A stretch of 64,000 nucleotides of DNA, taken from the NCBI RefSeq assembly GCF_036429475.1, contig NZ_CP144125.1, forward strand, positions 3,489,521 through 3,553,520, read 5' to 3'. Positions 10,175 through 26,880 of the stretch are shown one piece after another. The DNA is from Halalkalicoccus sp. CGA53. Lineage in GTDB: Archaea > Halobacteriota > Halobacteria > Halobacteriales > Halalkalicoccaceae. The notes beneath the pieces are model-generated. The model was not told the origin of the DNA, did no database searches, and was given only the letters and a program-made list of their open reading frames with translations. The translations under genes were made by a program, and so were the position numbers. Position 1 is the stretch's first letter; each line of letters begins with the position of its first letter.

Positions 10175-11476
10175 ATGGGATACGTCCGGCAGAGCGCGGC
10201 GGCCGTCCCCCGCCCGAACGAGATCTGGATCCCGGTGCTCTGTATCCTCGCCGCCCTCACGACGAACACGTGGCTGCTCTCGTCGACCGTCGGATACGGA
10301 CTCTCGCTGGTCGCGCTGACGGTCGCGGGTGTCTACCTCGTCTTCGTCGCCGACGTCGAGGTTCGTATCGACCTCGTCTTCCTCGCGCTCTTCGGGGGCT
10401 ACTGGCTCGTCCTCACCGCCGGGTGGTTCGTCGATCGCTCGCTCGACCGGCTCGCGTACGTCCTCGTGACGCCGCTCGGCGTGATCGTCGCGATGTTCCT
10501 CCTCCCGGGGGTGATCGACCGCTCGGACGGGCGTCGCCGGCTCGTGACGACGCTCACCGCGATCGGGGTCCTCGTCGCGGCGATCGGCTTCGCGATGCTC
10601 GCCGTCGAGTCCGTTACCGACCTCGCGACGTTCCCCTGGACGGGCGGGAACGTCTACGGGTTCTCCGGCTACCGGACGAACTCGGTGTTCTCGAACCCGA
10701 ACACTTACGGCTTCTTCATGATGGTCTGCACGATCACGGCCGTCCTTCACGCGGTAGCGCGTGGCCCTCGCCCCCTCTCTCTGAGCGCGATCGTCCTCTG
10801 CTCGCTGGCGGTCCTGACGAGCGACTCCACCGGGGCGTTGCTCGGCCTCGGTGCGGGGACGGCGCTCGTCGCCGCGGTCGCGTTCAGGAAGACGGCGATC
10901 GCGGTCGTTTTCGCGGGCGCGCTGACCACGGGCGCGCTCGTCGTGACCGGCCTGCTCGGAACGGCGATCGAGGGCCTCCTCCCGGCCAGGGTCGTCGCGC
11001 TGATCGACCTGCTGATCTCCGTGCGGGGTACGCTCTGGATGGCGTCGATCGAGCGCCTCGCGGCCGACCCGCTCGTGGGGATCGGCTTCGGCGACACGGC
11101 GGCCGAGATCGCCCCCTACGTCCCCCCCGGTGGCCCGGTCGGCTACGGGACGCACAACTCCTACATCAACATCCTCCTCCAGACCGGGGTCGTCGCCGGC
11201 GCGCTCTACCTCACGGCCGTGTTCTACGCGGTCGGGGCGGTGATCGTGAGCGCCCTCAGGACGCGGTTCTCCCCGCGCGAGCGGGGCGACTGGTGGCCGG
11301 TCTACGTATCGGCGGTCCTCGTCGCGATCCTCGTGACCATGACCTTCGAGTCGATGACGCTCGGTGGGCTCTCGCTGAACTCCGTACTGCTCGCGATCTA
11401 CCTCGGCCTCGCGCTCTCGTACGGGGGCGCGAGGGTCGTCGAGATCAGACCGCGGGAGGTCCTCTCGACCGGATGA
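10175..11476 (+). CDS. O-antigen ligase/polymerase-like membrane protein (Wzy/WaaL type), copy 1
   Basis: This 433-residue polytopic membrane protein has about 10-12 hydrophobic helices. Between the last helices it carries the family signature: a large extracytoplasmic loop with 'RGTLWMASIERLAADPLVGIGFGDT' followed by 'GTHNSYINILLQTGVVAGALYL'. The pattern 'R...W..a.....p..G.G.......HN.yl..l...G..G' is typical of O-antigen ligases and polymerases (Wzy_C/PF04932). An earlier 'NSVFSNPNTYGFFMM' is also family-like. It should join undecaprenyl- or dolichyl-linked glycan units outside the membrane. Its stop codon overlaps the start of a second such gene by four bases (ATGA), so both are made together. 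Confidence 0.82.
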   Translation: MGYVRQSAAAVPRPNEIWIPVLCILAALTTNTWLLSSTVGYGLSLVALTVAGVYLVFVADVEVRIDLVFLALFGGYWLVLTAGWFVDRSLDRLAYVLVTPLGVIVAMFLLPGVIDRSDGRRRLVTTLTAIGVLVAAIGFAMLAVESVTDLATFPWTGGNVYGFSGYRTNSVFSNPNTYGFFMMVCTITAVLHAVARGPRPLSLSAIVLCSLAVLTSDSTGALLGLGAGTALVAAVAFRKTAIAVVFAGALTTGALVVTGLLGTAIEGLLPARVVALIDLLISVRGTLWMASIERLAADPLVGIGFGDTAAEIAPYVPPGGPVGYGTHNSYINILLQTGVVAGALYLTAVFYAVGAVIVSALRTRFSPRERGDWWPVYVSAVLVAILVTMTFESMTLGGLSLNSVLLAIYLGLALSYGGARVVEIRPREVLSTG

Positions 11477-12849
11477 GACCCATGCGGAAAGACCGACTGC
11501 ACCGCGCGGACGAACCCCGCGACCGCCCACGAACACCGAACCACCCCGAGACGGTCGCGTTCGCGGCCTTCCTCCTCGCCTGTGTACTCGGCCTCTCGGT
11601 GTTCGTCACCCCGTCGGCCGGGCGTCTCGTCGCGCTGGTGGGCCTCCTCGCCTTTCTCGCGGTCGTCCTCCTCTACCGATGGAGGCCCGAGCAGCGACGA
11701 CTCGACCTCTCGCTCCGGACCCACCCCGCGATCGTCGTTCCGACGCTCGTCCTCTGGGCGGTCTTCGTCCTCACCCTCCTTCGCAACCCAACGCCCGCAG
11801 CGTTCGTTCACACCGCCGCGTTCGTCGTCTTCTCCGGCGTCGCGCTCTTCGTCGTCCCGGGGGTCGTCTCGAGGGAACGGGCGTTCGTGGTCATCGCCCT
11901 CCTCGGGGCGTTCGGCTTCCTCACGAGCGTTCCCACGGTCCTCTGGGGGAACTTCACCCTTTTGGGCTATCCGTTCGACCAGGCGGGCCCACAGCGCGTG
12001 GTCCTCGATTTCGCCTTCTACCCGCCGTCGTCGATCCTCGAGAGCCGGAACTACCTCCGGGTGCTCTTCGCGTTCGGCGCGGTCTGTGCGGCTGCGCTCT
12101 ACGTCGAACGCCGCCGCCCCTGGGCGGTGGCCGTCGCGGCGATGAACGTCACCGGGGTGGCGCTCACGCTCGGGCGCGCGGCGAGCCTGGCGCTGCTCGC
12201 CGTCGCGGTACTGCTCGCCGTCTACTCGCTCGCCGGGAGCGAGGCGCTGTTGGGCGCGACGCTCCTCGGCGTCGTCGGGACGCTCCTCGGCGTCGCCGTC
12301 GCGGTCGGACTGCTCCCGGGACCGGGTGCGACGATACAGGCGGCGCTCGACGAACGCATCAGGGACTGGACGCTGTCGTATCGGGCGTTCGCCGAACGGC
12401 CGGTGCTCGGGTGGGGGATCGTCGACTCGCACGGCGCGGCCGAGCGGCTCTACGGAGCGGGGTTCACCGGCATCCACAGCAGCTACATCCGGATGTTCGT
12501 CATCGGCGGCGTCGTCGGCGGCCTCGCCTACGTGGCGCTGTTCGTCTCGGCGCTCACACTGGCGTACAGGGGCGTCCGCGAGTCGGCGTTCGACGGGCTA
12601 CGAGGTCGAATACGGGAGCCGACGGCGCTCGAACTCGTCTACGGGAGGGAGGCGGCCGCACCGCTGGCGGTCGGCGCGTACTCGCTGGTCGTGCTGGTGC
12701 TCGTCTTCCAGCTGTTCGACGGGGCGACGGTCTTCGGGACGAACCTCTCGTCGGTGCTCTGGGCGCTCGCGGTGGGCTACACCCAGCCGACGTCCGCGTT
12801 GAGTGAGCTCTCGCTCCATCTCGGCGTGACTGGAGAGAGAGACGCGTAA
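11473..12849 (+). CDS. O-antigen ligase/polymerase-like membrane protein, copy 2
   Basis: This 458-residue multi-pass protein is coupled to the previous gene by an ATGA overlap, which fixes the start at 11473. It begins with a basic, cytoplasmic-looking tail (about 25 residues), then roughly 11 membrane helices. The conserved late loop reads 'ERIRDWTLSYRAFAERPVLGWGIVDSHG' and then 'GFTGIHSSYIRMFVIGGVVGGLAYV', the O-antigen ligase pattern with the His before 'S.Y....'. Another family trait is 'SRNYLRVLFAFGAVCAA' in the middle. Two different proteins of this class made from one transcript could be a polymerase and a ligase that act in turn on the same glycan. That division of labour is inference. 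Confidence 0.82.
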   Translation: MRPMRKDRLHRADEPRDRPRTPNHPETVAFAAFLLACVLGLSVFVTPSAGRLVALVGLLAFLAVVLLYRWRPEQRRLDLSLRTHPAIVVPTLVLWAVFVLTLLRNPTPAAFVHTAAFVVFSGVALFVVPGVVSRERAFVVIALLGAFGFLTSVPTVLWGNFTLLGYPFDQAGPQRVVLDFAFYPPSSILESRNYLRVLFAFGAVCAAALYVERRRPWAVAVAAMNVTGVALTLGRAASLALLAVAVLLAVYSLAGSEALLGATLLGVVGTLLGVAVAVGLLPGPGATIQAALDERIRDWTLSYRAFAERPVLGWGIVDSHGAAERLYGAGFTGIHSSYIRMFVIGGVVGGLAYVALFVSALTLAYRGVRESAFDGLRGRIREPTALELVYGREAAAPLAVGAYSLVVLVLVFQLFDGATVFGTNLSSVLWALAVGYTQPTSALSELSLHLGVTGERDA

Positions 12850-12912: not shown

Positions 12913-14721
12913 TCACTGCGTCGCGTAGAGCTGTGCGTACTTCCCGTCGCCCTCGACGAGTTCGTCGTGCGGGCCGCTCTCGACGATCTCGCCCGCGTCG
13001 AGCGTGTAGATCCGGTCGGCGTTGCGGACCGTCGAGAGCCGGTGGGCGATGGCGATCATCGCGTAGCCCCGGTCCATCGATTCGATCGCCGACTGGACCT
13101 CCTCTTCGATGTTCGTGTCCAGGTCCGACGTCGCCTCGTCGAGGACGAGCAGGTCCGCGTCCTTCAACAGCGCGCGGGCGAGCGAGACGCGCTGGCGCTG
13201 ACCCCCGGAGAGCCGCACGCCGTTGTCCCCGAGGACCGTATCGTAGCCATCGGGTAGCTGCCCGACGTACTCGTCGATGTGTGCGAGTTCGCACGCCCGC
13301 TGGAACTCGCGCTCGGTGGCCGCCTCGTTGCCGATCATCACGTTCTCCCTGAGCGAGCGGTTGAAGATGAAGGGGTCCTGGCGGACGAACGCGATGCGTT
13401 CACGCCACTTGGTGAGGTCGATCTCCTCGATCGGCACCCCGTTGGCCGTGATCCGCCCGGAGTCGATCTCGTAGAGCCGCGCCAAAAGCGAGACGATCGT
13501 CGACTTCCCGGCCCCGGACTGGCCGACGAACGCGACGAACTCGTTCTCGTCGACCGAAAAGGAGACGTTCTTCAGGACCGGCTCTTCCTCCTCGCCGGTG
13601 TCGTAGGTGAACGAGACGTCCTCGAACCCGATCGGCGTCGGCGGGCGTGGGACCTCCCTCGTACCGGAGTCGAGTTCGGCCTGCGCCTCCAGTTCGCGGA
13701 CGAACTCCTGGGTGCGAATCAGGTGCGGGAGCCGCCCCTCGACCTTGTAGAACCGGTTGTTCGCCCGGCTGACGACGGGTGCCAGCTGGAACATCGCGAA
13801 GAGGAAGACGCCGAGCGCGCCCAGCGACATGTTCGCGAACGTGAGCGCGACATAGATCATCCCGAAGACTACGAGCGCCGCCGCGAGGTTGTAGAAGGCG
13901 TCGATCGCCTCCTCGTTCCGCCCGAGTTTGACGTAGGAGGTGACGAACTGGTCGATCGCCTCGTTGAACGTACCCAGGACGTCGTCGCCCTTCGTGTAGA
14001 GCTTGACGTCCCGGATCCCCTGCGTGGCCGCCTGTGCGGACTCCTGGATCCGCTCGTTCGCGTCCGCAACCCGATCACCCAGCGTGTAGCCCGGTTCGAG
14101 GACGTATCTGATGAGGTACGTCAGCCCCCCGAGGAGGACGAGCGCGAGCACCGTCAGCTGTGGGGCGAGGTAGAAGGCGACGGCGAGGTACATCACCCCC
14201 AGGAGCACCTGTTCGAAGAACTGGATGAAGTCCCGGATCACCTTCCCGGCGTACTCGGCCTGGGTGACGATCGCGTTCATGATGTCGTCGGAGCCGTGCT
14301 GGTCGAAGTACGCGATCCGCGCGTCGACCGACCGCTCGATCGACAGCGTCTGGAGGTGTCGCATGTACTCCGTGTAGAGCGCGATCCGTAGCCAGCCGAC
14401 CATGAACGTCGCGGTGTAGCGCGCGGTCATCACCAGCGCGAGGCCGAGGACGATGTAGCCCAGCGTGAACGGGACGCCGACCGTGTCGTAGGCCATCGCG
14501 AACGCCCCGACGAGACCACCTTCTGCGGTCGGGTCGTCCGGTGTCTGAACCACCTCGATGATCGGCATGAGGAAGCTCAGCCCGACCCCCTGGAGGAGGG
14601 CGGCGAGCGCACTGAACGCGATGATGAACGCCGTCAGGACGGGTTTGAACATCGCGACGCGCCAGAACGCACGCGCCTTCTCGCGGAGAGAGAGGTCCTC
14701 CGTCTCCCGATCCGGTTCCAT
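12913..14721 (-). CDS. ABC exporter with fused membrane and ATPase domains (MsbA/PglK-like candidate flippase)
   Basis: This 602-residue half-transporter has an N-terminal six-helix transmembrane domain (about residues 25-330) followed by an ATPase domain. Walker A 'GQSGAGKST' lies near residue 399-407, the signature 'LSGGQRQR' near 503, Walker B 'LLVLDEATSDLD' near 521 and the His-switch in 'IAIAHRLSTV' shortly after. The protein should form a homodimer and export an amphipathic substrate. Among glycan loci this architecture occurs in MsbA and PglK, which flip lipid A or lipid-linked oligosaccharides. No Wzx/MATE-type flippase is present in the locus, so this protein is the best candidate for moving the lipid-linked glycan across the membrane. 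The start at 14721 is plausible and the N-terminus is charged. Confidence 0.88.
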   Translation of the reverse strand: MEPDRETEDLSLREKARAFWRVAMFKPVLTAFIIAFSALAALLQGVGLSFLMPIIEVVQTPDDPTAEGGLVGAFAMAYDTVGVPFTLGYIVLGLALVMTARYTATFMVGWLRIALYTEYMRHLQTLSIERSVDARIAYFDQHGSDDIMNAIVTQAEYAGKVIRDFIQFFEQVLLGVMYLAVAFYLAPQLTVLALVLLGGLTYLIRYVLEPGYTLGDRVADANERIQESAQAATQGIRDVKLYTKGDDVLGTFNEAIDQFVTSYVKLGRNEEAIDAFYNLAAALVVFGMIYVALTFANMSLGALGVFLFAMFQLAPVVSRANNRFYKVEGRLPHLIRTQEFVRELEAQAELDSGTREVPRPPTPIGFEDVSFTYDTGEEEEPVLKNVSFSVDENEFVAFVGQSGAGKSTIVSLLARLYEIDSGRITANGVPIEEIDLTKWRERIAFVRQDPFIFNRSLRENVMIGNEAATEREFQRACELAHIDEYVGQLPDGYDTVLGDNGVRLSGGQRQRVSLARALLKDADLLVLDEATSDLDTNIEEEVQSAIESMDRGYAMIAIAHRLSTVRNADRIYTLDAGEIVESGPHDELVEGDGKYAQLYATQ

Positions 14722-14796: not shown

Positions 14797-16158
14797 TTAC
14801 CGCTTCGGTCGGGCCGAGGCACGCTCGGCGACGGATCCGTCGAGGACGTAGGTGAGATAGAGTTCGGTCGCGACGCTGTCGAACGGGTACGGAAGCTTCG
14901 TACAGAGTCGCCGTTTCAGGCTGGCGGTGTAGTTCGGTTCGTGGATCGGCAGCGGGTGGCTCAGTTCCTCGGAGATCGTCGCGTCCGCGAACCACTCGAG
15001 GAACTCGTTCACGCCGTCGTACGGTAGGTCCACCCGATCGGGGTCGACCCGCTCTTGCATCTCGATCCAGAACCGCGCTTTCACGCTGTCGGCGGTGAAC
15101 CGCTCTCCCTCGACGTGCGACCGGATCCGGTCGAAGGTCCTCTCGTCGACCTCGAAGCCGTACTCTTCCGGGTCGTGGCCGGCGACGAGGAAGCCGGTGA
15201 TCGTGTGGAGACAGGTCCCACACCGGTTGCACGAGAGCGAGTCCTCGCCGCCCTCGTCACAGCTACTGATCTCCCAGGCGGTCTCCCGGCCCGCGAAGTA
15301 CTCGCCGATCAGTTCGATCTTCTCCTGGCGCGTGGTCCCGACCGCGTCGGACTCGACGGCCGTCCCCGACCAGCGGAGCGTGTCCACCAGCCGTGGCTGT
15401 GCGGAGTTGGGAAACCCCTCGTGGGGCATGTAATCGGCCGACTGGTAGATCCGCGTGATCCCCTCGTTGTGGGTGATCGGCGCCGTGAGCCCCGGGTAGC
15501 CGATGCCGAAGTACATCGTCCGGTCCCAGGAGTCGTTGAGCAGGTGTCTGAAGTAGAGGTTCACCGTGAACTTATCGACCATCGACTTCACGTTCGTCTC
15601 GACGTAGTGGGCGGTGAGACCGTTCTCCTCGGCGAACGCATCGATCATCGTCGAGCGTTTCCTCCAGGTGTTCTCGCGGGTCTCGCGCTCCTTTCTGACC
15701 GTGATGAGGTGGGGCTCTTCCTCCCGGTGGTTGAGGTACGTCGTCGTCGAGTCCACGCCACCGGTGAAGAGCACGCCTACCGCTCGCTCCGTCCGTGGTG
15801 ATCGGGTGTTCACGACCGTCTCGTACCGGATCGGCTCGACCCGGTCGAACGGGGCGTCGGGGTACTGGTCGGCGTACGCTCGCTGGAGCGCCGAGAGCGA
15901 GCGGAGAACGCGTGAGTCGACCCGACCGACGGACACCTCGGTGCCGGTGATCCACGCGAGCGGACAGAGCGTGGTGAGAAGCGGGACGACGAGAATGCTC
16001 TCGGGGACCGCGGAGACGTCCTCCGAGTACCGGACGTACGGATCGACACCGGTCAGAAACCGCCCGAACCGACGCGAGTACGAGAGGTCGTAGCGCACCT
16101 CGGTACCGTCGTGGACCGAGATGGCATCTATCGAGACGGAGGGCCGGGTGTTTAACAC
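14797..16158 (-). CDS. QueC-like PP-loop ATP pyrophosphatase of the polysaccharide locus
   Basis: This 453-residue protein has a PP-loop motif at residues 131-137 ('FTGGVDS', the SGGxDS class) that binds ATP and adenylates a substrate. A cysteine cluster further on (C300, C310, C313, C316 in 'SCNRCGTC') has the same arrangement as the zinc site of QueC-type synthases. The first 110 residues are an extra domain of unknown function. PP-loop enzymes activate carboxyl or carbonyl groups and add N or S; in glycan loci distant members amidate sugars (WbpG-like). A sugar- or lipid-modifying amidation or thiolation is therefore possible, but unproven. It starts with a GTG directly beside a small palindrome and a TATA-like sequence. 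I cannot name the exact family. Confidence 0.75.
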   Translation of the reverse strand: MLNTRPSVSIDAISVHDGTEVRYDLSYSRRFGRFLTGVDPYVRYSEDVSAVPESILVVPLLTTLCPLAWITGTEVSVGRVDSRVLRSLSALQRAYADQYPDAPFDRVEPIRYETVVNTRSPRTERAVGVLFTGGVDSTTTYLNHREEEPHLITVRKERETRENTWRKRSTMIDAFAEENGLTAHYVETNVKSMVDKFTVNLYFRHLLNDSWDRTMYFGIGYPGLTAPITHNEGITRIYQSADYMPHEGFPNSAQPRLVDTLRWSGTAVESDAVGTTRQEKIELIGEYFAGRETAWEISSCDEGGEDSLSCNRCGTCLHTITGFLVAGHDPEEYGFEVDERTFDRIRSHVEGERFTADSVKARFWIEMQERVDPDRVDLPYDGVNEFLEWFADATISEELSHPLPIHEPNYTASLKRRLCTKLPYPFDSVATELYLTYVLDGSVAERASARPKR

Positions 16159-16381: not shown

Positions 16382-17308
16382 ATGAGCAGAGCGAACCGGT
16401 GGGCCCGCCTCGGTCGGCAGCCCGCCGACCTGCTGGGCGACGGTCTACCGGGCCGGATCGGGTCGCTCTCGCGGCGGGCAGCCAGGGTCTATCGCGAGGA
16501 GGGGATCGGATACGCGGGAAAACGGCTGATCGAGGAAGGGCCACTGGGGGGGCTCCGGCGAGCGCACCCGGATCTATACTGGCGGGTCGCACCGGAGTAC
16601 CACCGACGTGCGTACACGAGGGACATCGACCGGTACGACGCGCCGCTCGACCCGTTCAAGGTCGAGTCCGTCGATCCGGCGCGGATCGCGCGGTCGTCGC
16701 TGCGGCCGTATCCGGCGTGGGAGGGGAAATCCCGGCTGTTCGGAACCGTCGTGGGAGGAGACTGGGATCGACCGCGACCAGACCACGAGGGGATCGCCAG
16801 GGGCCCGAACGCCTCGTGGGGGGAGAACGCCCTCTTCGAGAACAAGCTCACCTACCGGGCGTTCGAGGAGCACTTCGTCGACGGCGTCGAGTGGGAGGAG
16901 ATCGACCTGATCCGAGAGCGACTGGAGGAAGCACGCCGGGGAAAGGAAGCCTGGCAGGGCTGTCACTCGCCGGAGGAGATCCTCGAGCAATGTCGCTTCT
17001 TCGACGAGCTCTACGAGGAGATCCGGACCTCGGGGTTCAAGAGCCAACGCGAGCTACGCGACCGCGACCCGGAGCGCTATGAGAGCTTCCGTCACCTCGT
17101 GGCGGGGGAGGTGCTCGTCGACGTCGGCCGGACGGGCGAACTCCTCCACGTCGCCGGCGACCATCGCACCTCGATCGCGAAGATCCTCGGCCTAGAGACG
17201 ATCCCGGTCGGGTTCCTCGTCAGGCACAGCGAGTGGATGGCCTACCGCGACCGACTGTACGAGAGCGGATCGATCCCGGACCACCCCGACCTCCGGGACC
17301 TCCAGTAG
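16382..17308 (+). CDS. ParB/sulfiredoxin-like fold protein of the polysaccharide locus, copy 1 (diverged)
   Basis: This 308-residue protein is paralogous to the genes at 18557-19411 and 19465-20312. Shared blocks are 'VDPARIA', 'GTVVGGDWDRP', an 'AFEEHFVDGVEWEE' helix, 'LYEEIRTSGFKSQ' and, near the C-terminus, 'VDVGRTGELLHVAGDHRTSIAKILGLETIPVGFLVRH' read here in parts. The last block matches the ParB/Srx box (DGHHR..AAk.LG...IPV), here with 'GDHRTS'. The ParB/Srx fold binds nucleotides and includes ParB CTPases, sulfiredoxin, and the free-serine kinases SerK and SbnI. The role here is unknown; a nucleotide-dependent modification of a glycan component or of a partner is one possibility. It is followed 76 bp later by an oxidoreductase in the same direction. 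I do not recognise a named family. Confidence 0.72.
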   Translation: MSRANRWARLGRQPADLLGDGLPGRIGSLSRRAARVYREEGIGYAGKRLIEEGPLGGLRRAHPDLYWRVAPEYHRRAYTRDIDRYDAPLDPFKVESVDPARIARSSLRPYPAWEGKSRLFGTVVGGDWDRPRPDHEGIARGPNASWGENALFENKLTYRAFEEHFVDGVEWEEIDLIRERLEEARRGKEAWQGCHSPEEILEQCRFFDELYEEIRTSGFKSQRELRDRDPERYESFRHLVAGEVLVDVGRTGELLHVAGDHRTSIAKILGLETIPVGFLVRHSEWMAYRDRLYESGSIPDHPDLRDLQ

Positions 17309-17384
17309 CTCCTCCGGCGCTGATCCGAATCGCTCGATGGACAACGGGGGAGATATACGTCGGACTCGAAAAGGTCCCGGTAGA

Positions 17385-18560
17385 ATGACGCTCGAAGTAG
17401 CCGTGATCGGCACCGGACCCGATCCCGAGGAGGCCGGTGGCGTGGGATACGCGATGGGGTACCGTCACGCCTCCGCGTACGAACGAATCGACGACTGTGA
17501 GCTGAGCGCCTGCGTCGACATCGTCGAGGAGAACGCGCTCGCGTTCGCCGACCGGTACGACCTCGGCGCGGAGAGCGTCTACACGGACCATCGGATCATG
17601 CTCGAGGAGACTTCGCCGGACCTGGTCAGCGTCTGCACGCCGGCGAACACGCACGCCGATCTCGTCGCCGACTGTGCCGACGCCGGGGTGGGCGCGATCC
17701 ACTGCGAGAAGCCGATGGCGTCGACCTGGAGAGACTGCGAGCGGATGGTCGAGGTCTGCGAGGCCGAAGGCGTCTCGCTTTCGATCAACCACCAGCGCCG
17801 GTTCGCCGGGCCGTTCCGACAGGCGAAGGTGCTGCTCGACGACGGCGAGATCGGCGACCTCGAACGGATCGAGGTCGGCGGGAAGAACCTCTACGACTTC
17901 GGCACCCACCTCTTCGATCTCTGCGCCTACTTCACCGGAGGGGCCGACCCGGAGTGGGTGCGCGCGCTGCTCGTCTACGACGACGAGGACGTCCGCTACG
18001 GCGTCCACAACGAGAACCGGGCGATGAGCGAGTGGGTCTACGACACCGGAGTCACGGGGTTCGCGGAGACGGGCGTGGGCGATCGAAGATCCCTGATGAC
18101 GCTCCGCGGGAGCGAGGGGACGATCGAGATCGGTCGCGAGAACGGTCCCTCGCTCCGGGTAAGAGGGAGTACCGAAGACGAGTGGCGGTCGATCGACACG
18201 GGGATGGAGCGGGTCTCGCACGTGGTGGTCGAGCCGAGCCTCCCGGTCGTCGCGCTCAGGAGAGCCGACGACGCGCTTCCCGGCCCCCAGCTCCTGCGGC
18301 CGATCGCCGAGCGGATCCACGAACGCGGTCGGGATCCGTTCTTCGAGCCGTACATCCACAGGGCGCTTCGAGAGGTGGTCGACGCCACGCTGGAGGGCAG
18401 GGAGTCGGTGCTTCGCGCCGAGACCGCGCTGTCGGCGACGGAGCTTATCTTCGGGAGCTGGGAGTCCGCACGTCGACAAGAGCGGGTCGAGCTTCCACTG
18501 GAGATCGAGGACAACCCGCTCGAAGCGATGGTCGAGGAGGGACGGCTGCGGCCGAGCTAA
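17385..18560 (+). CDS. Gfo/Idh/MocA-family oxidoreductase
   Basis: This 391-residue NAD(P)-dependent dehydrogenase of the Gfo/Idh/MocA family has an N-terminal Rossmann fold starting 'LEVAVIGTGPDPEE' and the conserved 'HCEKPMA' motif near residue 110 (EKP, lysine for catalysis). The family's second domain follows, with 'GGKNLYDFGTHLFDLCAYFTGG' carrying the G.H.ID-like histidine. Such enzymes oxidise or reduce a hydroxyl on a sugar, an inositol or a UDP-sugar. In a glycan locus it probably makes a keto- or amino-sugar precursor, though the partner aminotransferase is not seen here. The ATG at 17385 puts the protein at the start of the first strand; the upstream frame from 17337 looks non-coding. 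Its stop overlaps by a few bases the stop of the convergent ParB-like gene. Confidence 0.88.
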   Translation: MTLEVAVIGTGPDPEEAGGVGYAMGYRHASAYERIDDCELSACVDIVEENALAFADRYDLGAESVYTDHRIMLEETSPDLVSVCTPANTHADLVADCADAGVGAIHCEKPMASTWRDCERMVEVCEAEGVSLSINHQRRFAGPFRQAKVLLDDGEIGDLERIEVGGKNLYDFGTHLFDLCAYFTGGADPEWVRALLVYDDEDVRYGVHNENRAMSEWVYDTGVTGFAETGVGDRRSLMTLRGSEGTIEIGRENGPSLRVRGSTEDEWRSIDTGMERVSHVVVEPSLPVVALRRADDALPGPQLLRPIAERIHERGRDPFFEPYIHRALREVVDATLEGRESVLRAETALSATELIFGSWESARRQERVELPLEIEDNPLEAMVEEGRLRPS

Positions 18561-19411
18561 CTCAGCGACCGCCCCGCAGACCAGGGTGACGTATCGGGTG
18601 TGCGCGGCGAGTTCGACGGTCGATCCCTCCGGTCGAACTCGTGGAGTGGCCGGACGTCCGGGTGGTCGAGATGTCGACGCTCCCGCTCGTCGAGGTCGTC
18701 GACGGAGGCGGCGCTCGCGACGACCTCCCGGATCGCCTCCCACCGTTCGTGACGAACGACGACGAACACGGGGATACGGTCGATGCCGAGGACCTTCGCG
18801 AGCGCCAGGCGATGGTGGCCCTCCCAGTTGTTGAAGATCAGCGTTCCGTCCCGTCCGACGTTCACCGGAACGTTTCGAGTGGGGTCCGACGATGGCTCGT
18901 AGCCGTCTCGAAGCATCGACCGGTAGAGCGACTCACAGATACCGATCCGCTGCTCGACGGCCTGGACGTCGTACAACTCACCCATCAACAGCATGTGTTG
19001 GGCGTACTCCGTCTCCATCCAGTCGACCCCATCGAGGTAGTGATCCGCGAAGGCGCTGTACACCCGGTCGAACCGATACGGCTTACGGTGTCGGTCCCAC
19101 TCCCCCGGGACGACCCTCCCTCCGAAGAACTGGACCGGAAAGTACGCCTTCGATAGCTCGTGTTTGGTTATCAGGCCCTTCTCGGTCCTGTAGCTGGTCG
19201 CCGGGTGCCGACCCTCGATCAGGAAATGCGTGATCGAACCCGGATCGACGTCGATGACGTCGGCGCCGAGCGACGTTCGCCGGTAGGCTCGTCGGACCCG
19301 AACCCGTCTCGCAGCCTGGCGAACACGGCTCGACGCAGCAGAGAGGAGGGCGACGAACCCGTCCTCGCGCCACTTTCCGACCGCCCTCGACGGAAGCTCG
19401 CGAACGGCCAT
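18557..19411 (-). CDS. ParB/sulfiredoxin-like fold protein, copy 2
   Basis: This 284-residue paralogue of the genes at 16382 and 19465 has a basic, amphipathic N-terminus (about 50 residues), then 'VIDVDPGSITHFL', 'KHELSKAYFPVQFFGG', 'VVPGEWDRHRKPYRFDRVY' and 'ADHYLDGVDWMETEYAQH'. The C-terminal box contains 'VNVGRDGTLIFNN', 'EGHHRLALAKVLGIDRIPV' and 'VVVRHERWEAIRE'. The last three pieces have the shape of the ParB/Srx active-site segment: Gly-His-His-Arg, helix, then 'IPV' strand. The EGHHR box is closer to the ParB consensus than in copy 1. Function is not known; see the finding on this trio. The ATG at 19411 is chosen because the frame upstream loses similarity to the paralogue. Confidence 0.75.
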   Translation of the reverse strand: MAVRELPSRAVGKWREDGFVALLSAASSRVRQAARRVRVRRAYRRTSLGADVIDVDPGSITHFLIEGRHPATSYRTEKGLITKHELSKAYFPVQFFGGRVVPGEWDRHRKPYRFDRVYSAFADHYLDGVDWMETEYAQHMLLMGELYDVQAVEQRIGICESLYRSMLRDGYEPSSDPTRNVPVNVGRDGTLIFNNWEGHHRLALAKVLGIDRIPVFVVVRHERWEAIREVVASAASVDDLDERERRHLDHPDVRPLHEFDRRDRPSNSPRTPDTSPWSAGRSLS

Positions 19412-19464
19412 CGGGGACACTATCGTCGGCGTGCTATATACGGGCTGTGGTGGTCGAACCGATC

Positions 19465-20312
19465 TCACCGCCCGAACAGCGCCTCGACCGGTCGTCGGAA
19501 GCCTCCGATCACCGAACTCGATCGATCCTCCCGGTCGAACGCGTGGAGCGAGGTCACGTCCGGGCGGTCGAGATGATCGCGTCCTCGATCGCCGAGATCG
19601 TCGACCGAGTCGGCGCTCGCGACCGCCTCGCGGATCGCCTGCCACTCCGCGTGTCGAACGACGACGGTCACGGGGATTCGGTCGACATCGAGTATCTTCG
19701 CCACCGCCAGCCGGTGGTGGCCGTCCTCGTTGTTGAAGGTCAGTTCCCCGTCCCGGCCGACGTTGACGGCGACCTTTCGGTCCTCTCTCGGCTCGGGTTC
19801 GTATCCCTCGCTCGCCACGTCGCGATTGAGCGCGTCACAGCGGTCGGTTCGGCGGTCGAAGAAGCCGTGGCCGTACAGTTCGTTGAGCACCAGCATGTGC
19901 TGGCCGTACTCCGTCTCCTCCCACCCCTTCCCCTCGACGAAGCACTCTCTGGCCGCGAGGTGGACCCGGTCGAACCAGTGGGATTTCGTGTATCGATCCC
20001 ACTCTCCGGGGACGATCGCCCCTTTTAACCGGTCGATCGGGAAGTGAGCTTGTCGAGTTCGTGTTTCGTCGCGAAGCCGTTCTTCACCCGGTAGCTCGTC
20101 GCGGGGTGCTCGCCCTCGACGAGGTACCGCTCGATCCGGCCGGGGTCGACCTCGATCACGGTCGTCCCGTCCGGGACGGAGGCGTAGGTCCTCGCTACCC
20201 GAAACCGGTCGAATCGGTCGGAGAGTCGTTCGTGTGCGACGGAGAGTACGGTCAGCGGGCCCTCCTCGTGAAACCGTCGGAGAGCCTTCCGGACGAGCGA
20301 TAGACCACTCAT
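19465..20312 (-). pseudogene. ParB/sulfiredoxin-like fold protein, copy 3, frameshifted
   Basis: The start at 20312 opens the same family: 'MSGLSLVRKALRRFHEEGPL' then 'VIEVDPGRIERYLVEGEHPATSY' and 'KHELDK'. Right after 'KHELDK' the frame runs to a stop. A shift of one base at about 20046-20051 restores the family sequence: 'AHFPIDRLKGAIVPGEWDRY', then 'HMLVLNELYGHGFF', 'VNVGRDGELTFNNEDGHHRL' and 'AKILDVDRIPV', ending at 19465. Compared with copy 2 ('KHELSKAYFPV'), the loss of one G in an AAGG(CT) context explains the break. It is either a recent inactivating mutation or a sequencing error. If it is an error, the protein is about 282 residues long and functional. Confidence 0.78.
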
Positions 20313-20388: not shown

Positions 20389-21627
20389 CTACTGTGGATC
20401 GTCGACGACCGCATCCAGGCGGTCCGAGAGCTCGTCGGGGTCGACCAGCAGGTCGTCGTGCGGGTCGTGGGCGACCGGCTCGACGACCATCGGTTCGTAC
20501 TCGAAGCCGAGCATCCCCGAGAGCAGGTAGTACGACGGGCGGACGAGCGTTTCCGCGAACAGTTCGACGACCGTCGGGTCCTCGGCGAAGAGACCGTTCG
20601 CGAGTCCCGCGCCGTGCGGCGAGAGGATCACCTCGGCGTCCGAGACCAGGCGGACCTGCTCGGCGAACGGAAGCGACTCGAGGACGTAGGACTCGAAGCC
20701 GTAGCTATCGAGGACCGGTTCGATCTCGTCGTAGTTCGCGACCCGGCGACCCCGGTCCGTCGCCCGTCGAGAGACGTAGAGTCGCTTCCCGCCGGACGAC
20801 GCGGAGGGGAGATCGACCGCCGACCGGATCGCGTCGCGAACCCACAGACAGTCCTCGGCCGAGAGCGAGAAGCCGTATCGTGGGCCCGCCCACGACGTCG
20901 CGAGCCGGTGGTCGGTCACCAGGAGGGGGTCGACGGTACACTCCGCGCCGTCCCACTCGACGTACCGTCCGTCGTAGCCGAGCAGCGCCAGCGTCGCCCG
21001 GACGAACGAGGGGGGGTCCTCCTCGACGATCACCACCGGCTCGCGTCCGGTTTCGGCCTCGTACCGTTCGATCAACCGGAGTTTCGGGAGGTACTCGACC
21101 AGCCACGGGTAGTAGTAGTTGTCGTAGAACGGGACGAGCGGGAGCACGGGGGGCAGCGAGCGTTCCGGTACCGAAGGCGACCGGGAGGCGACGTTGCGCA
21201 GTACGAGTTCGAGCGCCGTCTTCGTCCCGAGGAAGTCCTTGTGGGCGGTGAAGAAGTGCTCGTAGTGCGAGCCCGCGGTATCGAGGAGGATCCGGTCGTC
21301 GAGCAGGCCGACCGCGCTGTCGCCGACGAGACGGCAGTCGGGCACCTCGCAGAGGAACCGTGGCTCCGGGTGGTACTCGCCGGCGAACTGCCCGAGTTCT
21401 CGAGGGACGTCCACGGGCGAAATCCGACACGGTGTCTCCTGGGCTTCGAACCAGCGGTAGCTCCGTTCTGCGGCCCGCCGGTCGAGGCCCGCTCGCGTGA
21501 CGAACTCCAGTCCCCGGTGGAGCGCGATCGACTTCGGGAAGCCGAGCGCTTTCAGCGCCAGCACCCGTGGGCCGTGCTCGCGGTAGATCTCGGCGGCCCG
21601 GCCCGGGAGCTCTCGTGGGGCGTTCAT
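20389..21627 (-). CDS. GT61-family glycosyltransferase (DUF563 type)
   Basis: This 412-residue protein with the GT61 C-terminal block runs 'LYVSRRATDRGRRVANYDEI', 'LDSYGFESYVLESLPFAEQVRLVSDAEVILSPHGAGLANGLFA' (read in pieces), then 'PTVVELFAE'. The 'SPHGAGLAN' motif is the strongest marker of this family (EOGT, plant xylosyltransferases and bacterial capsular enzymes). The N-terminal half carries 'FYDNYYYPWLVEYLPKLRLIERY' of the acceptor region. It should transfer a sugar, commonly a pentose or hexose, to a polysaccharide or protein. It is transcribed in the same direction as the frameshifted ParB-like gene, 76 bp upstream of it, and a GT2 lies just upstream on the same strand. The specific sugar cannot be told. 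Confidence 0.85.
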   Translation of the reverse strand: MNAPRELPGRAAEIYREHGPRVLALKALGFPKSIALHRGLEFVTRAGLDRRAAERSYRWFEAQETPCRISPVDVPRELGQFAGEYHPEPRFLCEVPDCRLVGDSAVGLLDDRILLDTAGSHYEHFFTAHKDFLGTKTALELVLRNVASRSPSVPERSLPPVLPLVPFYDNYYYPWLVEYLPKLRLIERYEAETGREPVVIVEEDPPSFVRATLALLGYDGRYVEWDGAECTVDPLLVTDHRLATSWAGPRYGFSLSAEDCLWVRDAIRSAVDLPSASSGGKRLYVSRRATDRGRRVANYDEIEPVLDSYGFESYVLESLPFAEQVRLVSDAEVILSPHGAGLANGLFAEDPTVVELFAETLVRPSYYLLSGMLGFEYEPMVVEPVAHDPHDDLLVDPDELSDRLDAVVDDPQ

Positions 21628-21691: not shown

Positions 21692-22684
21692 TCAGATCCG
21701 GAAGTGTCGCTCGATCAGGCTCGGTCTGACGATGGCGACGAGTCGGGCGACGAACTCAAGGAGGTAGTACGACGCGCCGAGCGCGAGCGCGAGCGCGATC
21801 GTCGCCGGATCGTTCGAGACGGATTCGCGTCGCGAGAGCACGTTGTACCCCACCTGTTTCGCGCGGTGAACGAGCTTCGAGACCGCCGCTTTCGCGCGGT
21901 CTTTCTCGCTCCTCTCCTCGCCGTAGCGGTACCAGAAGTCCGAGTCGTAGCCGCTGCAGACCGCGCGGTTGACGAAGTGATCGAGCCCGTTCATCGCGGG
22001 GTGTGAGACCTTCGCCTCCGGCGCGTTGTAGAGGCACCTCTCGTCGATTTCGAGTCGACGCTTCAGTTCGACGCACTGGCCCCGGTAGGAGTCCTCCTCG
22101 GGAAAGCGGTACTCGAGGAACGCCTCGCGCGAGAACGCGACGTTACACGCCATGTAGCCCTCGTAGGCCTCCTCCTCGGTCGGGAAGAACCAGAACATCG
22201 CGACGGCGGACTTGTACCGGGTGTCGGTCTCGACGTAGGGGTGGCCGAGCACCATCTCCGTCCCCTCCTCGAGAAACGGCGAGACGATCTCCGCCAGCCA
22301 GCCCGCCTGGGGGACGACGTCGCTGTCGACGTAGACGAGCACGTCGCCGGTGGCGCGCTCGGCACCGACGTTCTTCAGTTCGTAGAAGTGCGAGCCCGGC
22401 GAGGCGACGAACTGCGGGTCGTGGTGGTCGTCGAGCGTGAGCGACGCCAAGTGTCTGATCTGGGTCTCCTCGACGTCCTCGGGGTTGTAGACGAAGATGA
22501 TCTCCGGCGTCTCGGGAAAGCGATCGGCGAGCTCCGCTAGCTGGGCGTTCAGCGCCCGGAGCATTCTCTCGGAACGGCTCTCCTCGGCGTGGATGACGTT
22601 CTCCCACTCGATGACGATCGAGGTCGAGGGGAACGTCTCCTCTCCCGACCGGCCGCGCCTGATGGAGCCGAGTATGCTGCTCAT
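21692..22684 (-). CDS. GT2-family glycosyltransferase with C-terminal membrane segment
   Basis: This GT-A enzyme of about 330 residues begins 'MSSILGSIRRG' and soon runs 'TSIVIEWENVIHAEESRSERML'. The nucleotide-sugar-binding acidic motif is in 'VLVYVDSDVVPQAGWLAEIV' (DxD), and 'GHPYVETDTRYKSAVAMFWFF' follows. Near the end 'TIALALALGASYYLLEFVARLVAIV' is a hydrophobic segment that could anchor the enzyme to the membrane. I chose the Met at 22684 over that at 22714. It should add a sugar to a membrane-bound glycan precursor. It is the first gene of the minus-strand row that continues with the GT61. Confidence 0.82.
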   Translation of the reverse strand: MSSILGSIRRGRSGEETFPSTSIVIEWENVIHAEESRSERMLRALNAQLAELADRFPETPEIIFVYNPEDVEETQIRHLASLTLDDHHDPQFVASPGSHFYELKNVGAERATGDVLVYVDSDVVPQAGWLAEIVSPFLEEGTEMVLGHPYVETDTRYKSAVAMFWFFPTEEEAYEGYMACNVAFSREAFLEYRFPEEDSYRGQCVELKRRLEIDERCLYNAPEAKVSHPAMNGLDHFVNRAVCSGYDSDFWYRYGEERSEKDRAKAAVSKLVHRAKQVGYNVLSRRESVSNDPATIALALALGASYYLLEFVARLVAIVRPSLIERHFRI

Positions 22685-22787
22685 CGTTCCCGGATTCGTA
22701 CCGACACGCATCAACCTGTTGAACGACGACAGCTCTCGCTCTCGGGTGTATCGACGGGTTTAGAACGTCGGCCGCGTTTCTCGGCAC

Positions 22788-23729
22788 GTGAGCAACGCAG
22801 ACGGGTCGAGCGAACCGACGCTCTCGGTGGTGATCCCGGTCTACAACGACCCGGCGGGGATGAGGCTGACCCTGGAGTCGGTGACGGAACAGACCTATCC
22901 CACAGAGCGCTACGAGGTGCTCGCCGTCGACAACGGGAGCACCGACGGGACTCCCGAGGTGATCCGGGCATTCTCTTCGTTCTACGATAACGTCCACCTG
23001 CTCGTCGAGGACGAGGTCCAGGGCTCGTACGCCGCCCGCAACGAAGGGATCGAACACGCACGCGGGGAGGTCGTATCGTTCGTCGACGCGGATATGACCG
23101 TCGAGGAAAACTGGGCCGAGTCGGTCCTCGACTCCTACGATCGACACGGCTGGGACTACATGGGCTGTCCGGTCGAACTCTATGTAGAAGGAGAGGAGAC
23201 GCTCACCGCGACCTACGACCGGACGCTCGGCGGGTTCCCCGTCGAACGGTACATGCGAGAGCGCGAGTTCACCGGAACGGGCAGCCTCTCGATCCGACGC
23301 GAGGTGTTCGATTCTGTCGGAACCTTCGACGAGCGGATCGTCTCGCAGGGCGACGGCGAGTTCGGAAAGCGCGTCGCCGAGGCAGGCTTCGTCCAGCACT
23401 TCGAGCCGACAATCACGATGTACCACGCGGCGCGGACGGATCTGCGCGCGTGGCTCGGAAAGCAGGTCCGGATCGGACGCGGGGCGATCCAGAAGCAGGT
23501 CTACTATCCCGATCGGACGGAAGCGGCCGAACGCGCCCATCCCCTTCACCCGCGGAAGTTCCTCCCCCCGAAACCGTGGGGCTTCTACCGACGGCTCACC
23601 GACGAGACGGATCCGAGTCCCGGAGAGGTGGGCGGGCTCTACGCGATCGACTACGCGAGCAAACTCGCCCGGACCGCCGGCGGGATCGCCGAGTGGATCG
23701 AACGGTCCCGAAGCGGGGAGTGGAACTAG
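22788..23729 (+). CDS. GT2-family glycosyltransferase
   Basis: This 313-residue GT-A enzyme starts (GTG at 22788) with 'LSVVIPVYNDPAGMRLTLESV', the classic family 2 opening. 'VLAVDNGSTDGTPEVI' holds the first Asp, and 'VVSFVDADMTVEENWAESVL' the DxD metal site. 'GTGSLSIRREVFDSVGTFDE' is the acceptor-side segment. The last 70 residues run to 'YAIDYASKLARTAGGIAEWIE'. It should transfer a sugar from a UDP/GDP-sugar to a lipid-linked acceptor. A TATA-like 'gggtttagaa' stands about 30 bp upstream, which suits a leaderless message. A deacetylase gene follows nine bases later and a nucleotidyltransferase further on, so it starts a plus-strand run. Confidence 0.88.
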   Translation: MSNADGSSEPTLSVVIPVYNDPAGMRLTLESVTEQTYPTERYEVLAVDNGSTDGTPEVIRAFSSFYDNVHLLVEDEVQGSYAARNEGIEHARGEVVSFVDADMTVEENWAESVLDSYDRHGWDYMGCPVELYVEGEETLTATYDRTLGGFPVERYMREREFTGTGSLSIRREVFDSVGTFDERIVSQGDGEFGKRVAEAGFVQHFEPTITMYHAARTDLRAWLGKQVRIGRGAIQKQVYYPDRTEAAERAHPLHPRKFLPPKPWGFYRRLTDETDPSPGEVGGLYAIDYASKLARTAGGIAEWIERSRSGEWN

Positions 23730-23738
23730 GGGGCAGCC

Positions 23739-24494
23739 GTGATACGAGAGGGCGTGAAGCGAGGACTGCGGGAACTCGGGCGGACAGGGCTCTACCAGCG
23801 GCTTCCGGACAGCCACAACACCGTCCTTGCCTATCACTCGGTCGGTGGCGGTGGGTACGACGACATCCCTCCAGAACGGCTCGGAGCGCAGCTCGAGTGG
23901 CTCACTGCGACCTACGAGGTCGTCGACCTTCCCGCAGTCCTGGAGCGAGGCGATCGAAAGCGGATCGCGCTCACGTTCGACGACGCGCTCCGGTCGTTCC
24001 AGGAGAACGTGGTTCCACTGCTTCGCGAGTACGACGTCCCGGCCACCGTCTTCGCCATCGGGGGGTCGGTGACCGACCCGCCGGGGCTGGATTCGATCCG
24101 GGGTGAACCGCTCATGACGGCAGAACAGCTGCGAGCGGTCGCCGACGACCCGCTCGTGACCGTCGGCTCGCACACGATGACCCACGTCCCGCTCTCGGAG
24201 ATCACCGACGAAGCGGAGTTACACGAGGAGATCACCGGCGGGACCGAACGCGTCGAGTCCGCCGTCGGAGTCGGGATCGACCGGTTCAGTTACCCGTTCT
24301 ACGAGTGGTCGGCGGAGGCCAGAGAGGTCGTGGCGGAACGCCACGAGTACGCCGTCAGGGGGGAGGGATCACACGCGCTCATCGGGGAGGACACCGATCC
24401 GTACCTCGTCCCCCGAATAAACGGCGCCGTCCCCCTCTCGACGCTCAGGTTCACCGTCTCGGACGCGAAGAAACACCTCACGCGGCTCTCGTAA
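23739..24494 (+). CDS. NodB-type polysaccharide deacetylase
   Basis: This 251-residue protein has the NodB homology domain of carbohydrate esterase family 4. Motif 1 is 'ALTFDDALRSF' with D81 and D82 (TFDDG in most members; here DDA). Motif 2 is 'VGSHTMTHVPLS' with H145 and H149 (H-x3-H), which binds zinc with the first Asp. 'YPFYEWS' and 'PYLVPRINGA' cover the other active-site strands. The enzyme should remove an N- or O-acetyl group from a sugar of the surface glycan. No signal peptide is seen, so the reaction is probably cytoplasmic or at the membrane on the lipid-linked unit. A GTG start sits nine bases after the GT2 stop, which makes an operon very likely. Confidence 0.85.
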   Translation: MIREGVKRGLRELGRTGLYQRLPDSHNTVLAYHSVGGGGYDDIPPERLGAQLEWLTATYEVVDLPAVLERGDRKRIALTFDDALRSFQENVVPLLREYDVPATVFAIGGSVTDPPGLDSIRGEPLMTAEQLRAVADDPLVTVGSHTMTHVPLSEITDEAELHEEITGGTERVESAVGVGIDRFSYPFYEWSAEAREVVAERHEYAVRGEGSHALIGEDTDPYLVPRINGAVPLSTLRFTVSDAKKHLTRLS

Positions 24495-24937: not shown

Positions 24938-25702
24938 ATGAACGACGACCGACGAGCGATCGTCCTCGCGGCGGGGCAGGGAAAGCGACTCCAGCCGCTC
25001 ACCGACGAGACGCCGAAGACGCTTCTCGACGTGGGGAGCCAGTCGATCCTCGATCACATCCTCGACAGCCTCGAAGCCAACGGCTACGAGGAGGCCGTCG
25101 TCGTGACGGGCTTCGGGCGCGAACAGGTCGAAGCTCACTGCGACGCCCGCGAGGGCATCGGGATCGAGTTCGTCCACAACGCCGACTACGACACGACGAA
25201 CAACATCTACTCGCTCTGGCTCGCCCGCGAGTACGCCGAAGGCGGGTTCACCCTCATCAACGCGGACACCCTCTTCCCCGCGAGCAGTCTCGAGAAGCTG
25301 TGTGCAGCCGAGGGGAGCGCGCTGCTCGTCGACACCGAGCAGGACCTCGACGACGAGGAGATGCAGGTCGCCTTCGGTTCCGACCACATCGAAACCATCG
25401 GGAAGAACCTGGATAGTGAGAACCGAGAAACAGGTGTCTACCTCGAGGACGGCGACGGGGAGTACATCGGCGTCTCGCGCTTTACCGCCGAGGATACGAC
25501 GCTCCTGTTCGGGCACATCGAGGAGTTCGTCGAGCGCGGGGCCGTGACGGACTGGTACGAGGCGGCGTTCGACCGGCTCTTCGACGAGCGCGAGATCGGT
25601 TACGTCGAGGTCGACGACACCTGGATGGAGATCGACACGCCCGAGGACCTCGAACGGGCGCGCACCCGATGGCCCGAGGCGCACGTCGAGCAGTCGCTGT
25701 GA
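24938..25702 (+). CDS. Sugar/alcohol-phosphate nucleotidyltransferase, LicC-like
   Basis: This 254-residue nucleotidyltransferase has the opening 'AIVLAAGQGKRLQPLTDETPK' (G-x-G-x-R plus the lysine K27 that contacts the nucleotide). The fingerprint 'DYDTTNNIYSLWLA' is what sets apart choline-phosphate cytidylyltransferase LicC and inositol-phosphate cytidylyltransferases from ordinary RmlA-type enzymes. 'LINADTLFPASSLEKL' holds the metal-binding Asp, and 'VDDTWMEIDTPEDLERA' closes the site. It should join CTP (or another NTP) with a phosphorylated alcohol to give CDP-X. Its stop overlaps the GTG of the next gene by four bases (GTGA), a TagF-like phosphotransferase that would use CDP-X. The exact alcohol is unknown. 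Confidence 0.85.
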   Translation: MNDDRRAIVLAAGQGKRLQPLTDETPKTLLDVGSQSILDHILDSLEANGYEEAVVVTGFGREQVEAHCDAREGIGIEFVHNADYDTTNNIYSLWLAREYAEGGFTLINADTLFPASSLEKLCAAEGSALLVDTEQDLDDEEMQVAFGSDHIETIGKNLDSENRETGVYLEDGDGEYIGVSRFTAEDTTLLFGHIEEFVERGAVTDWYEAAFDRLFDEREIGYVEVDDTWMEIDTPEDLERARTRWPEAHVEQSL

Positions 25703-26880
25703 TCCGGCGGGGCGTCCGGGGTGTCTTGGCGACAGTCCTGTTCGCCCTCTCGCTGGTCAGTCCTCGCGATGACTCACTGTGGGTCTTCGGCTCGAACGGC
25801 GGCGACGCCTTTCGCGACAACGCGAAGTACCTCTACCTGCACGCCGCCGACGAGCGCGAGCACGTCAGGGCGGTGTGGCTCTCGCGGAACGAGGAGGTCA
25901 TCGAGCGACTCCGATCGAGCGGATACGAGGCGTACCACGTCGACTCCCTCCGTGGGATCCGGGCGAACCTCCGTGCGGGGTACGTCTTCGTGACGCACGG
26001 CATGCCGGACGTGAACCGGTGGTGTTCCGGTGGAGCGACGAAAGTCCTGCTCTGGCACGGCGTCGCGCTGAAACGGATCGGCTGGGACGCACCGAAACTC
26101 CGACACCGGAGAGAGCGTCTGAAGCGGGTGATGAAGGACACGCTCTTCGACCGCTACGACTGGATCACGGTACCGTCGGAGGCGATGGTCGGACCGTTCG
26201 CCTCCGCGTTCCGGATCGGAGAGGACAGGGTGCTCACGACCGGCTACCCGCGAAACGACGTGCCGGCGGGGACGTGGACGGGTGCGGACCCGACGAGGGA
26301 GGTGGAACTCGAACGGCGCTATCGCGCGTACCACGAGGAGGGACCGGTGGTCCTCTACATGCCGACGATCCACCGCGAGACGGGAGAGAGCATCGTCGAT
26401 CATCTCGACCTCGACGCGTTCGATCAGTGGCTCGCCGAGCGGGACGCCCGTCTGCTGTTCAAACCGCACCCCGCCGAACCGATCGACCTCGGTGGAGGGT
26501 TCTCCAGGATCGAGGAGGTGCCCGAGGGCGTCGACGTCTATCCGCTGCTCGAGTACGCCGACGTGGTGCTCACCGACTACTCGTCGGTCTACTTCGACTT
26601 CCTCCTACTCGACCGGCCGGTCGTCTTCTACCCGTTCGATCTCTTAGGGTACCGGGAGGAACGCGGGTTCTATCCCGAGTACGAGGCGGTGACGCCCGGG
26701 CCAGTAGCGACGACGTTCGCGGGCCTCCTCGACCGACTGGACGACGTACTCGAGACCGACGAGTACGCCGCCGATCGCACGGCAGTTCGCGAGGAGTTCC
26801 TGTGGACCGGGCCCGGGAGCCGGTGTCGATCGGTCGGCGACCGGTTCGACCCGCGTGCCGATACGTCGGGGGGGAGGTGA
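25699..26880 (+). CDS. CDP-glycerol glycerophosphotransferase-family protein (TagB/TagF-like)
   Basis: This 393-residue protein has the order of motifs typical of PF04464: 'DSLWVFGSNGGDAFRDNAKYL', 'VFVTHGMPDVNRWCSGGATKV', 'LLWHGVALKRIGWDAPKL', 'LYMPTIHRETGES', 'LLFKPHPAEP' and 'VVLTDYSSVYFDFLLLDRPV', followed by 'VFYPFDL'. The histidines in the WHG and KPH boxes bind the phosphates. In bacteria these enzymes transfer glycerol- or ribitol-phosphate from CDP-alcohols to teichoic-acid chains at the inner face of the membrane. Here the partner next door is a LicC-like cytidylyltransferase, joined by a GTGA overlap that fixes the start at 25699. The pair suggests a phosphodiester-linked surface polymer; no archaeal product is known to me. 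The first 25 residues could be a membrane-associating segment. Confidence 0.86.
   Translation: MIRRGVRGVLATVLFALSLVSPRDDSLWVFGSNGGDAFRDNAKYLYLHAADEREHVRAVWLSRNEEVIERLRSSGYEAYHVDSLRGIRANLRAGYVFVTHGMPDVNRWCSGGATKVLLWHGVALKRIGWDAPKLRHRRERLKRVMKDTLFDRYDWITVPSEAMVGPFASAFRIGEDRVLTTGYPRNDVPAGTWTGADPTREVELERRYRAYHEEGPVVLYMPTIHRETGESIVDHLDLDAFDQWLAERDARLLFKPHPAEPIDLGGGFSRIEEVPEGVDVYPLLEYADVVLTDYSSVYFDFLLLDRPVVFYPFDLLGYREERGFYPEYEAVTPGPVATTFAGLLDRLDDVLETDEYAADRTAVREEFLWTGPGSRCRSVGDRFDPRADTSGGR

Follow-up and report, generated by a model that had tools for sequence, protein, structure and literature searches.

The window analysed here, a stretch of 64,000 nucleotides of the genome of Halalkalicoccus sp. 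CGA53 (contig NZ_CP144125.1, positions 3,489,521 to 3,553,520 of the forward strand), carries, among genes of surface-glycan assembly, two intact related genes, A and B, and a frameshifted copy, C (Table 1). Searches of Pfam and NCBIfam with A, B and C found no matching model. The family to which they belong is an undescribed, widespread archaeal and occasionally bacterial group of stand-alone proteins of ca. 280 amino acids (aa), and structure models support the presence in A and B of a core resembling that of ParB and sulfiredoxin (Srx), with the helix of the GxxR motif (P motif) between strands. The fold is known; the family is new, and so are its setting and its large insertion.

A and B are intact homologues under purifying selection, well beyond chance. 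A search of the genome with A found the locus of B at E 3e-8, a search with B found C at E 6e-63, and a profile built from relatives matched B at E 1.4e-44. Compared with a relative from another genus that has the same gene order, A and B gave ratios of nonsynonymous to synonymous substitution (dN/dS) of ca. 0.32, the neighbouring oxidoreductase gene 0.32 and the gene for a glycosyltransferase of family 61 (GT61) 0.26. This mutual homology, together with dN/dS values like those of the neighbours, indicates that A and B are real, constrained genes. Copy C spans 848 bases, a number not divisible by three, and its constraint is weaker, with dN/dS of ca. 0.45-0.48 for its two parts against the syntenic relative, in which a single B/C gene is found where the window has B and C. 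In a quick tree, which was the basis of the family phylogeny, C groups with B and with the B of the syntenic relative, and A lies elsewhere. C is probably a decaying duplicate of B, the alternative being a sequencing error. The tree placement, the frameshift, the dN/dS values and the single B/C gene of the relative indicate that A and B are two old paralogues kept together on separate branches, accompanied by a decaying or mis-sequenced duplicate, and that there is no recent amplification. The first-pass annotation had described three paralogues arisen by amplification and divergence; the homology stands for the intact A and B, but C is broken and only B and C are sisters. Its list of shared motif blocks was roughly right, although overstated, since A has GDHR instead of HHR, and C has GYEPEP and EGKGWEE in place of G[YF].S and DGV.W.E. 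Five more copies of the family are present elsewhere in the genome. Two of them have transposase-like genes next to them, two form a tandem pair with glycosyltransferases in the vicinity, and the fifth lies near AglB.

The genes around A, B and C are conserved as a block in the relative, where TagF, nucleotidyltransferase, GT2, GT2, GT61, B, Gfo/Idh, A, the PP-loop-like protein, the ABC transporter and GT4 follow each other in the same order. The window carries three Wzy_C-like membrane proteins, the middle one of which scored below the Pfam cut-off. As the first-pass annotation had noted, no chromosome-segregation gene is found among those scanned around A-C.

Table 1. Family genes and neighbouring features in the window
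Feature	Position	Strand	Remarks
Sulfatase family protein	7272..8714	-	
Glycosyltransferase family 4 (GT4)	8845..9945	-	
Wzy_C/O-antigen ligase-like membrane protein	10175..11476	+	
Wzy_C-like membrane protein	11482..12849		
ABC transporter, flippase type	12913..14721	-	membrane and ATPase domains
453-aa protein	14797..16158	-	no Pfam match; PP-loop-like FTGGVDST motif (read by eye); adjoins A in related genus too
Family gene A	16382..17308	+	308 aa; intact open frame
Gfo/Idh/MocA oxidoreductase	17337..18560	+	between A and B; order A-Gfo/Idh-B kept in second genus
Family gene B	18557..19411	-	284 aa; intact open frame; block order as in A; GHHR P motif
Copy C	19465..20312	-	frameshifted, sister of B; N-terminal frame 20312-20025 (ends TAA), C-terminal frame 20022-19465
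Glycosyltransferase family 61 (GT61)	20389..21627	-	
Glycosyltransferase family 2 (GT2)	21692..22714	-	
Glycosyltransferase family 2 (GT2)	22788..23729	+	commonest partner type of the family (21 of 48 loci)
Polysaccharide deacetylase	23739..24494	+	
Nucleotidyltransferase	24938..25702	+	sugar- or polyol-phosphate type
TagF/TarF-like protein	25669..26880	+	glycerophosphotransferase family
Wzy_C/O-antigen ligase-like membrane protein	26988..28250	+	

Fold and conserved residues

Models of A and B were obtained with AlphaFold2 from alignments with 60 homologues. Mean predicted local distance difference test values (pLDDT) were 85.5 for A and 82.4 for B, predicted template modelling scores (pTM) were 0.80 and 0.72, respectively, and the core blocks exceeded a pLDDT of 90 in both. 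In the models, a strand with VDP and a strand with GVV.GDWD are followed by a largely helical region and then by a long helix whose end carries G[YF]xxQ; two strands, a helix with GxHR, and a strand ending in RH come next. The additions to this core are a helical region at the N-terminus and an insertion of ca. 100 residues, largely helical as well. The corresponding blocks of A are the VDP strand, the GDWD motif, a C-motif-like helix, the GFKSQ loop, the GDHR P motif, RHSEW and HPDL; in its model, a helix at 197-217, followed by GFKSQ, precedes a strand at 244-248, an arrangement whose likeness to the C motif was judged by eye.

When the models were compared with the PDB using Foldseek, 50 matches were listed for each, of which at least 42 (A) and 45 (B) were Srx, ParB, Noc, KorB, PadC, SbnI or SerK; human and plant sulfiredoxin and 1vk1 appear in the list, as does Atu1540 (2hwj), which was not counted. 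Many viral structural neighbours named ParB/Sulfiredoxin were found as well. At the sequence level, 30 of the 60 family members match a "ParB-like partition nuclease" family of PHROGs, the best E-value (1.9e-4) being to another ParB-like family, and 10 out of 12 weak tblastn matches in phages were named ParB-like or nucleoid occlusion proteins. The alignment of the family profile to ParB with hhalign reached 86.5% (E 4.6e-6) over the P motif; as controls, the reversed alignment reached 3.1%, and none of 30 column shuffles exceeded 0.5%. SbnI ranked first, weakly (E 0.11, 30 positions), in a PDB sequence search with the family, aligned on the GxHR box, and the same search with A alone gave chance matches only. 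The AlphaFold2 models together with the Foldseek lists, the PHROGs matches and a ParB alignment absent in shuffles agree with the ParB/Srx fold that had been proposed in the first pass. As to the profile and structure comparisons, the resemblance holds for the hhalign alignment with ParB and for the Foldseek list, but not for Pfam PF02195, and for the sequence of SbnI it amounts to the match at E 0.11.

Known members put this fold to several uses, namely a cytidine triphosphate (CTP) switch in ParB and Noc and the phosphorylation of serine by SerK and SbnI and of sulfinic acid by Srx (PMC12704722, PMC5120207). SerK and Srx provide evidence that it can be catalytic (PMC5120207, PMC12704722), PadC and Noc exemplify non-enzymatic uses, and the GxxR arginine of ParB-fold proteins is required for nucleoside triphosphate (NTP) binding (PMC12704722). 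A survey of ParB-fold proteins published in 2025 gathered those with PF02195 at the gathering cut-off (PMC12704722); like the family described here, they use the fold in divergent proteins that are stand-alone or orphans, but they are PF02195-positive, and the family was probably missed by that survey because it has no PF02195 match.

The family resembles ParB, Noc and KorB in the GxxR motif, in the profile match and, as judged by eye, in the helix and loop before the motif; unlike them, it has no helix-turn-helix (HTH) or C-terminal dimerisation domain by Pfam and no ParA among the neighbours scanned. Lacking PF02195 as well as the domain architecture of ParB, it does not qualify as a canonical ParB. 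With SbnI and SerK, both among the fold matches, it shares a ParB/Srx fold without HTH and a GxHR motif, SbnI being the top PDB sequence match, but it differs from them in its large helical insertion, its glycan setting and the absence of PF02195. In the SbnI motif, DGVHR, the Asp before GxHR has a catalytic role, and the sulfiredoxin motif, GGCHR, carries the active-site Cys. The alignment with SbnI stops short of the region of the catalytic Glu (E30 of SerK, mutants of which appear in titles of PDB entries). Sulfiredoxins are top Foldseek matches and have the same core and GxHR loop; in contrast to them, position 260 of the family is mostly Arg (22 of 60 members), Gln (14) or Lys (11), and Cys is not among the commonest residues, a GGCHR-like sequence being found only in one distant member (L134). 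With neither a conserved Asp before GxHR nor the Cys of Srx, the family is not assignable to SbnI or Srx.

Strictly kept in all 60 relatives (numbering of A) are P99, D129, R250, G252, R262 and H282; G126, W128, W171, G218, G259, R281 and W285 are nearly invariant (58-59 of 60), and H301-P302-D303 is kept in 55 of 57. Judged from the alignment, these many invariant Asp, His and Arg residues would suit an active site better than a scaffold.

Distribution and genomic context of the family

Members were found in 109 of 292 sampled genomes of Halobacteria, representing 43 of 77 genera, with up to 7 matches per genome. They were also found in three genomes of other classes of the same phylum (methanogen-like by eye), in one nanohaloarchaeal metagenome-assembled genome, and in Trueperaceae-type bacteria. 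A tighter alignment was used for scanning the collection, the family-wide alignment being too diverse for that purpose. No relative was found in viral contigs with the single pattern scanned. Domain fusions suggested by long open frames in several genomes were rejected as read-through of stop-free GC-rich frames. In Halorubrum vacuolatum, five members lie within a single cluster of AglB and glycosyltransferase (GT) genes (L071:6186-12842).

The genes near 48 named family loci were compared with those near 20 control loci, a small control set; loci from related species cannot be counted as independent. Within 4 kb of the family gene, GT or AglB genes were present at 30 of the 48 loci versus 1 of 20 controls, and GT2 genes at 23 versus none (p 4e-5); MATE-type flippases were found at 15 family loci and 1 control, and relatives of the ABC transporter of the window were located no farther than 4 kb away at 10 of 48. 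Among 147 close neighbours, a count that leaves out three very long ones, Pfam identified 20 GT2, 10 polysaccharide flippases, 7 GT4 and 5 CDP-alcohol phosphatidyltransferases, four families all absent from the top families of 119 control proteins. The association with glycan genes proposed from the window is seen again at unrelated loci, both within Halobacteria and in other archaea and bacteria, which suggests that the fold has been drawn into the synthesis of cell-surface sugars.

Particular settings are found in parts of the family. One clade (L076, L077, L080, L081, L083, L085, L087-L090) has a common setting with DUF7475, which often precedes the family gene, and a CDP-alcohol phosphatidyltransferase gene directly follows the family gene in L080, L081, L083, L076 and L095; this clade suggests a link to polar lipid headgroups. 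In methanogen-type genomes, where some gene names were assigned by eye, one copy lies beside AglB, and an operon (L132:9626-12227) contains a glycerol-3-phosphate cytidylyltransferase fused to Gfo/Idh, adjoining a TagF-like gene, as well as a GT2 and a family gene. The divergent member of L134 (2574-6306), also from a methanogen-type genome and with the sulfiredoxin-like sequence GGGGCHR, lies in a cluster resembling those for pseudaminic or legionaminic acid synthesis. In Trueperaceae-type bacteria, the clusters that hold the copies are of the exopolysaccharide type and include GT2, GT4, ABC flippase and Wzz-like genes (recognised by eye, the GT and ABC types being confirmed by profiles).

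TagF and Gfo/Idh were considered as general partners and rejected. No TagF relative lies within 9 kb at any of the 48 loci, TagF being near a family gene only in the window, in its syntenic relative and in one methanogen-type genome. Gfo/Idh was found at 1 of the 48 loci; a Gfo/Idh oxidoreductase also adjoins a family gene on a plasmid of Halobaculum salinum (L149).

Two further arrangements were observed. In L050 and L054, two members from different clades stand tail to tail beside an ABC transporter of the MsbA type, and no glycosyltransferase is close to them. A very divergent member (L160:1140-5749; profile E 6.5e-21), whose long-branch join with L134 in the tree is not trusted, has in its vicinity an ABC transporter and an asparagine-synthase-like protein that matches a lasso-peptide cyclase model at E 8e-106, a score below the cut-off of the model. 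This member may serve in the tailoring of a lasso peptide.

Candidate functions

The explanation that we prefer, though only tentatively, is that the family consists of nucleotide-dependent enzymes, probably phosphotransferases, acting on a glycan, a polyol or a polar headgroup in the assembly of lipid-linked glycans. A and B would be soluble and, with a nucleotide bound at the GxHR loop, would pass phosphate or, less likely, another nucleotide-derived group on to one of those acceptors. The insertion, with the invariant WD (D129), R250, RH (281-282) and HPD (301-303), may form the acceptor site and supply the catalytic residues, and where a genome has several paralogues, their acceptors would differ, as those of the neighbouring glycosyltransferases do. 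An acceptor-specific enzyme is favoured by the invariant acidic and His residues outside the P motif and by the presence of divergent paralogues beside different glycosyltransferases; a phosphotransferase would be the likeliest type of enzyme given the ParB/Srx fold. Nucleotide binding, catalysis, phosphate transfer and the nature of the acceptor are what we infer from fold, conservation and context taken together.

Several results weigh against this explanation or against the fold assignment underlying it. No single Foldseek match was significant (best E 0.03), with overlaps of only ca. 60-110 residues, probably because the insertion splits the core, so that the structural support lies in the consistency of the list of neighbours and not in any single E-value. 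PF02195 was not listed for any of the 60 members (E up to 10), nor for A, B or the fragment of C, and gave no match in the genome at 1e-5. The residue before GxHR is Asp in only 19 of the 60 members, the others having Tyr, Ser, Asn, Cys, Ala, Glu or other residues. Of 28 ParB-fold proteins tested, 17 did not bind NTP (PMC12704722). As for the context, GT and AglB genes are absent within 4 kb at 18 of the 48 loci, the comparison is limited by the size of the control set and the relatedness of species, and the neighbours point to no particular substrate.

The main rival, which we consider rather unlikely, is that the proteins are nucleotide sensors or assembly factors and not catalysts; the core would bind an NTP or a nucleotide sugar and would switch or scaffold the glycosyltransferase and flippase machinery, in a manner comparable to the CTP switch of ParB and Noc. 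The conserved GxxR motif, preceded by the C-motif-like helix and loop, fits such a role, as do the membrane machinery among the partners, with flippases as some of the commonest immediate neighbours, and the non-enzymatic use of the fold by PadC and Noc. However, the invariant D129, H282 and HPD outside the P motif, and the many paralogues with differing neighbours, fit acceptor-specific enzymes better.

The first-pass annotation had suggested a kinase supplying phosphate to the TagF-like pathway. A small-molecule kinase of this kind would make a polyol or cyclitol phosphate, from which the nucleotidyltransferase and the TagF-like protein would build a phosphodiester-linked polymer. The set of A, Gfo/Idh, B, nucleotidyltransferase and TagF is kept in the window and in its syntenic relative, and the methanogen-type locus with the cytidylyltransferase-Gfo/Idh fusion, TagF, GT2 and a family gene is in line with it. 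As a general rule it fails, since TagF and Gfo/Idh are not partners across the 48 loci, and two intact, divergent paralogues would be surplus for one kinase step; it holds at most locally, and for the family we regard it as improbable.

More improbable still is a passenger gene, one that is carried along as variable glycan islands spread but takes no part in glycan assembly. Its patchy distribution, the plasmid copies, the transposase-like neighbours in L018 and the frameshifted C would be expected of such a gene, but A and B are under purifying selection like that of their neighbours, gene order is kept across genera, one clade has the fixed setting with DUF7475 and CDP-alcohol phosphatidyltransferase, and the same context is found in bacteria. 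A DNA-binding regulator or partition protein of the ParB type, for which fold and P motif resemble ParB and Noc and SbnI is described in its PDB entry as a bifunctional transcriptional regulator, is the least probable of all, given that Pfam finds no HTH or dimerisation domain, that the neighbours scanned are glycan genes and not ParA, and that the protein ends ca. 25-60 residues past the last core strand.

Returning to the phosphotransferase, a bolder form of it, possible although doubtful, is that the family represents a new class of acceptor-specific phosphotransferases of glycan or lipid intermediates built on the ParB/Srx fold and extending from archaea into bacteria, in which each paralogue would decorate or activate a lipid-linked glycan or headgroup of its own. 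The ParB/Srx fold is now seen as a general NTP-binding module, and searches of the literature for ParB-like proteins in glycan clusters, or for the family itself, found nothing relevant to a glycan-linked branch. Nameless in Pfam and NCBIfam, the family is present in more than one third of the sampled Halobacteria, often with several copies per genome, and its neighbours include AglB, glycosyltransferases and flippases. If its members are enzymes, they would provide a missing step in the synthesis of archaeal surface glycans or lipid headgroups and a new chemistry for the fold, and the family is directly testable in genetically tractable haloarchaea.

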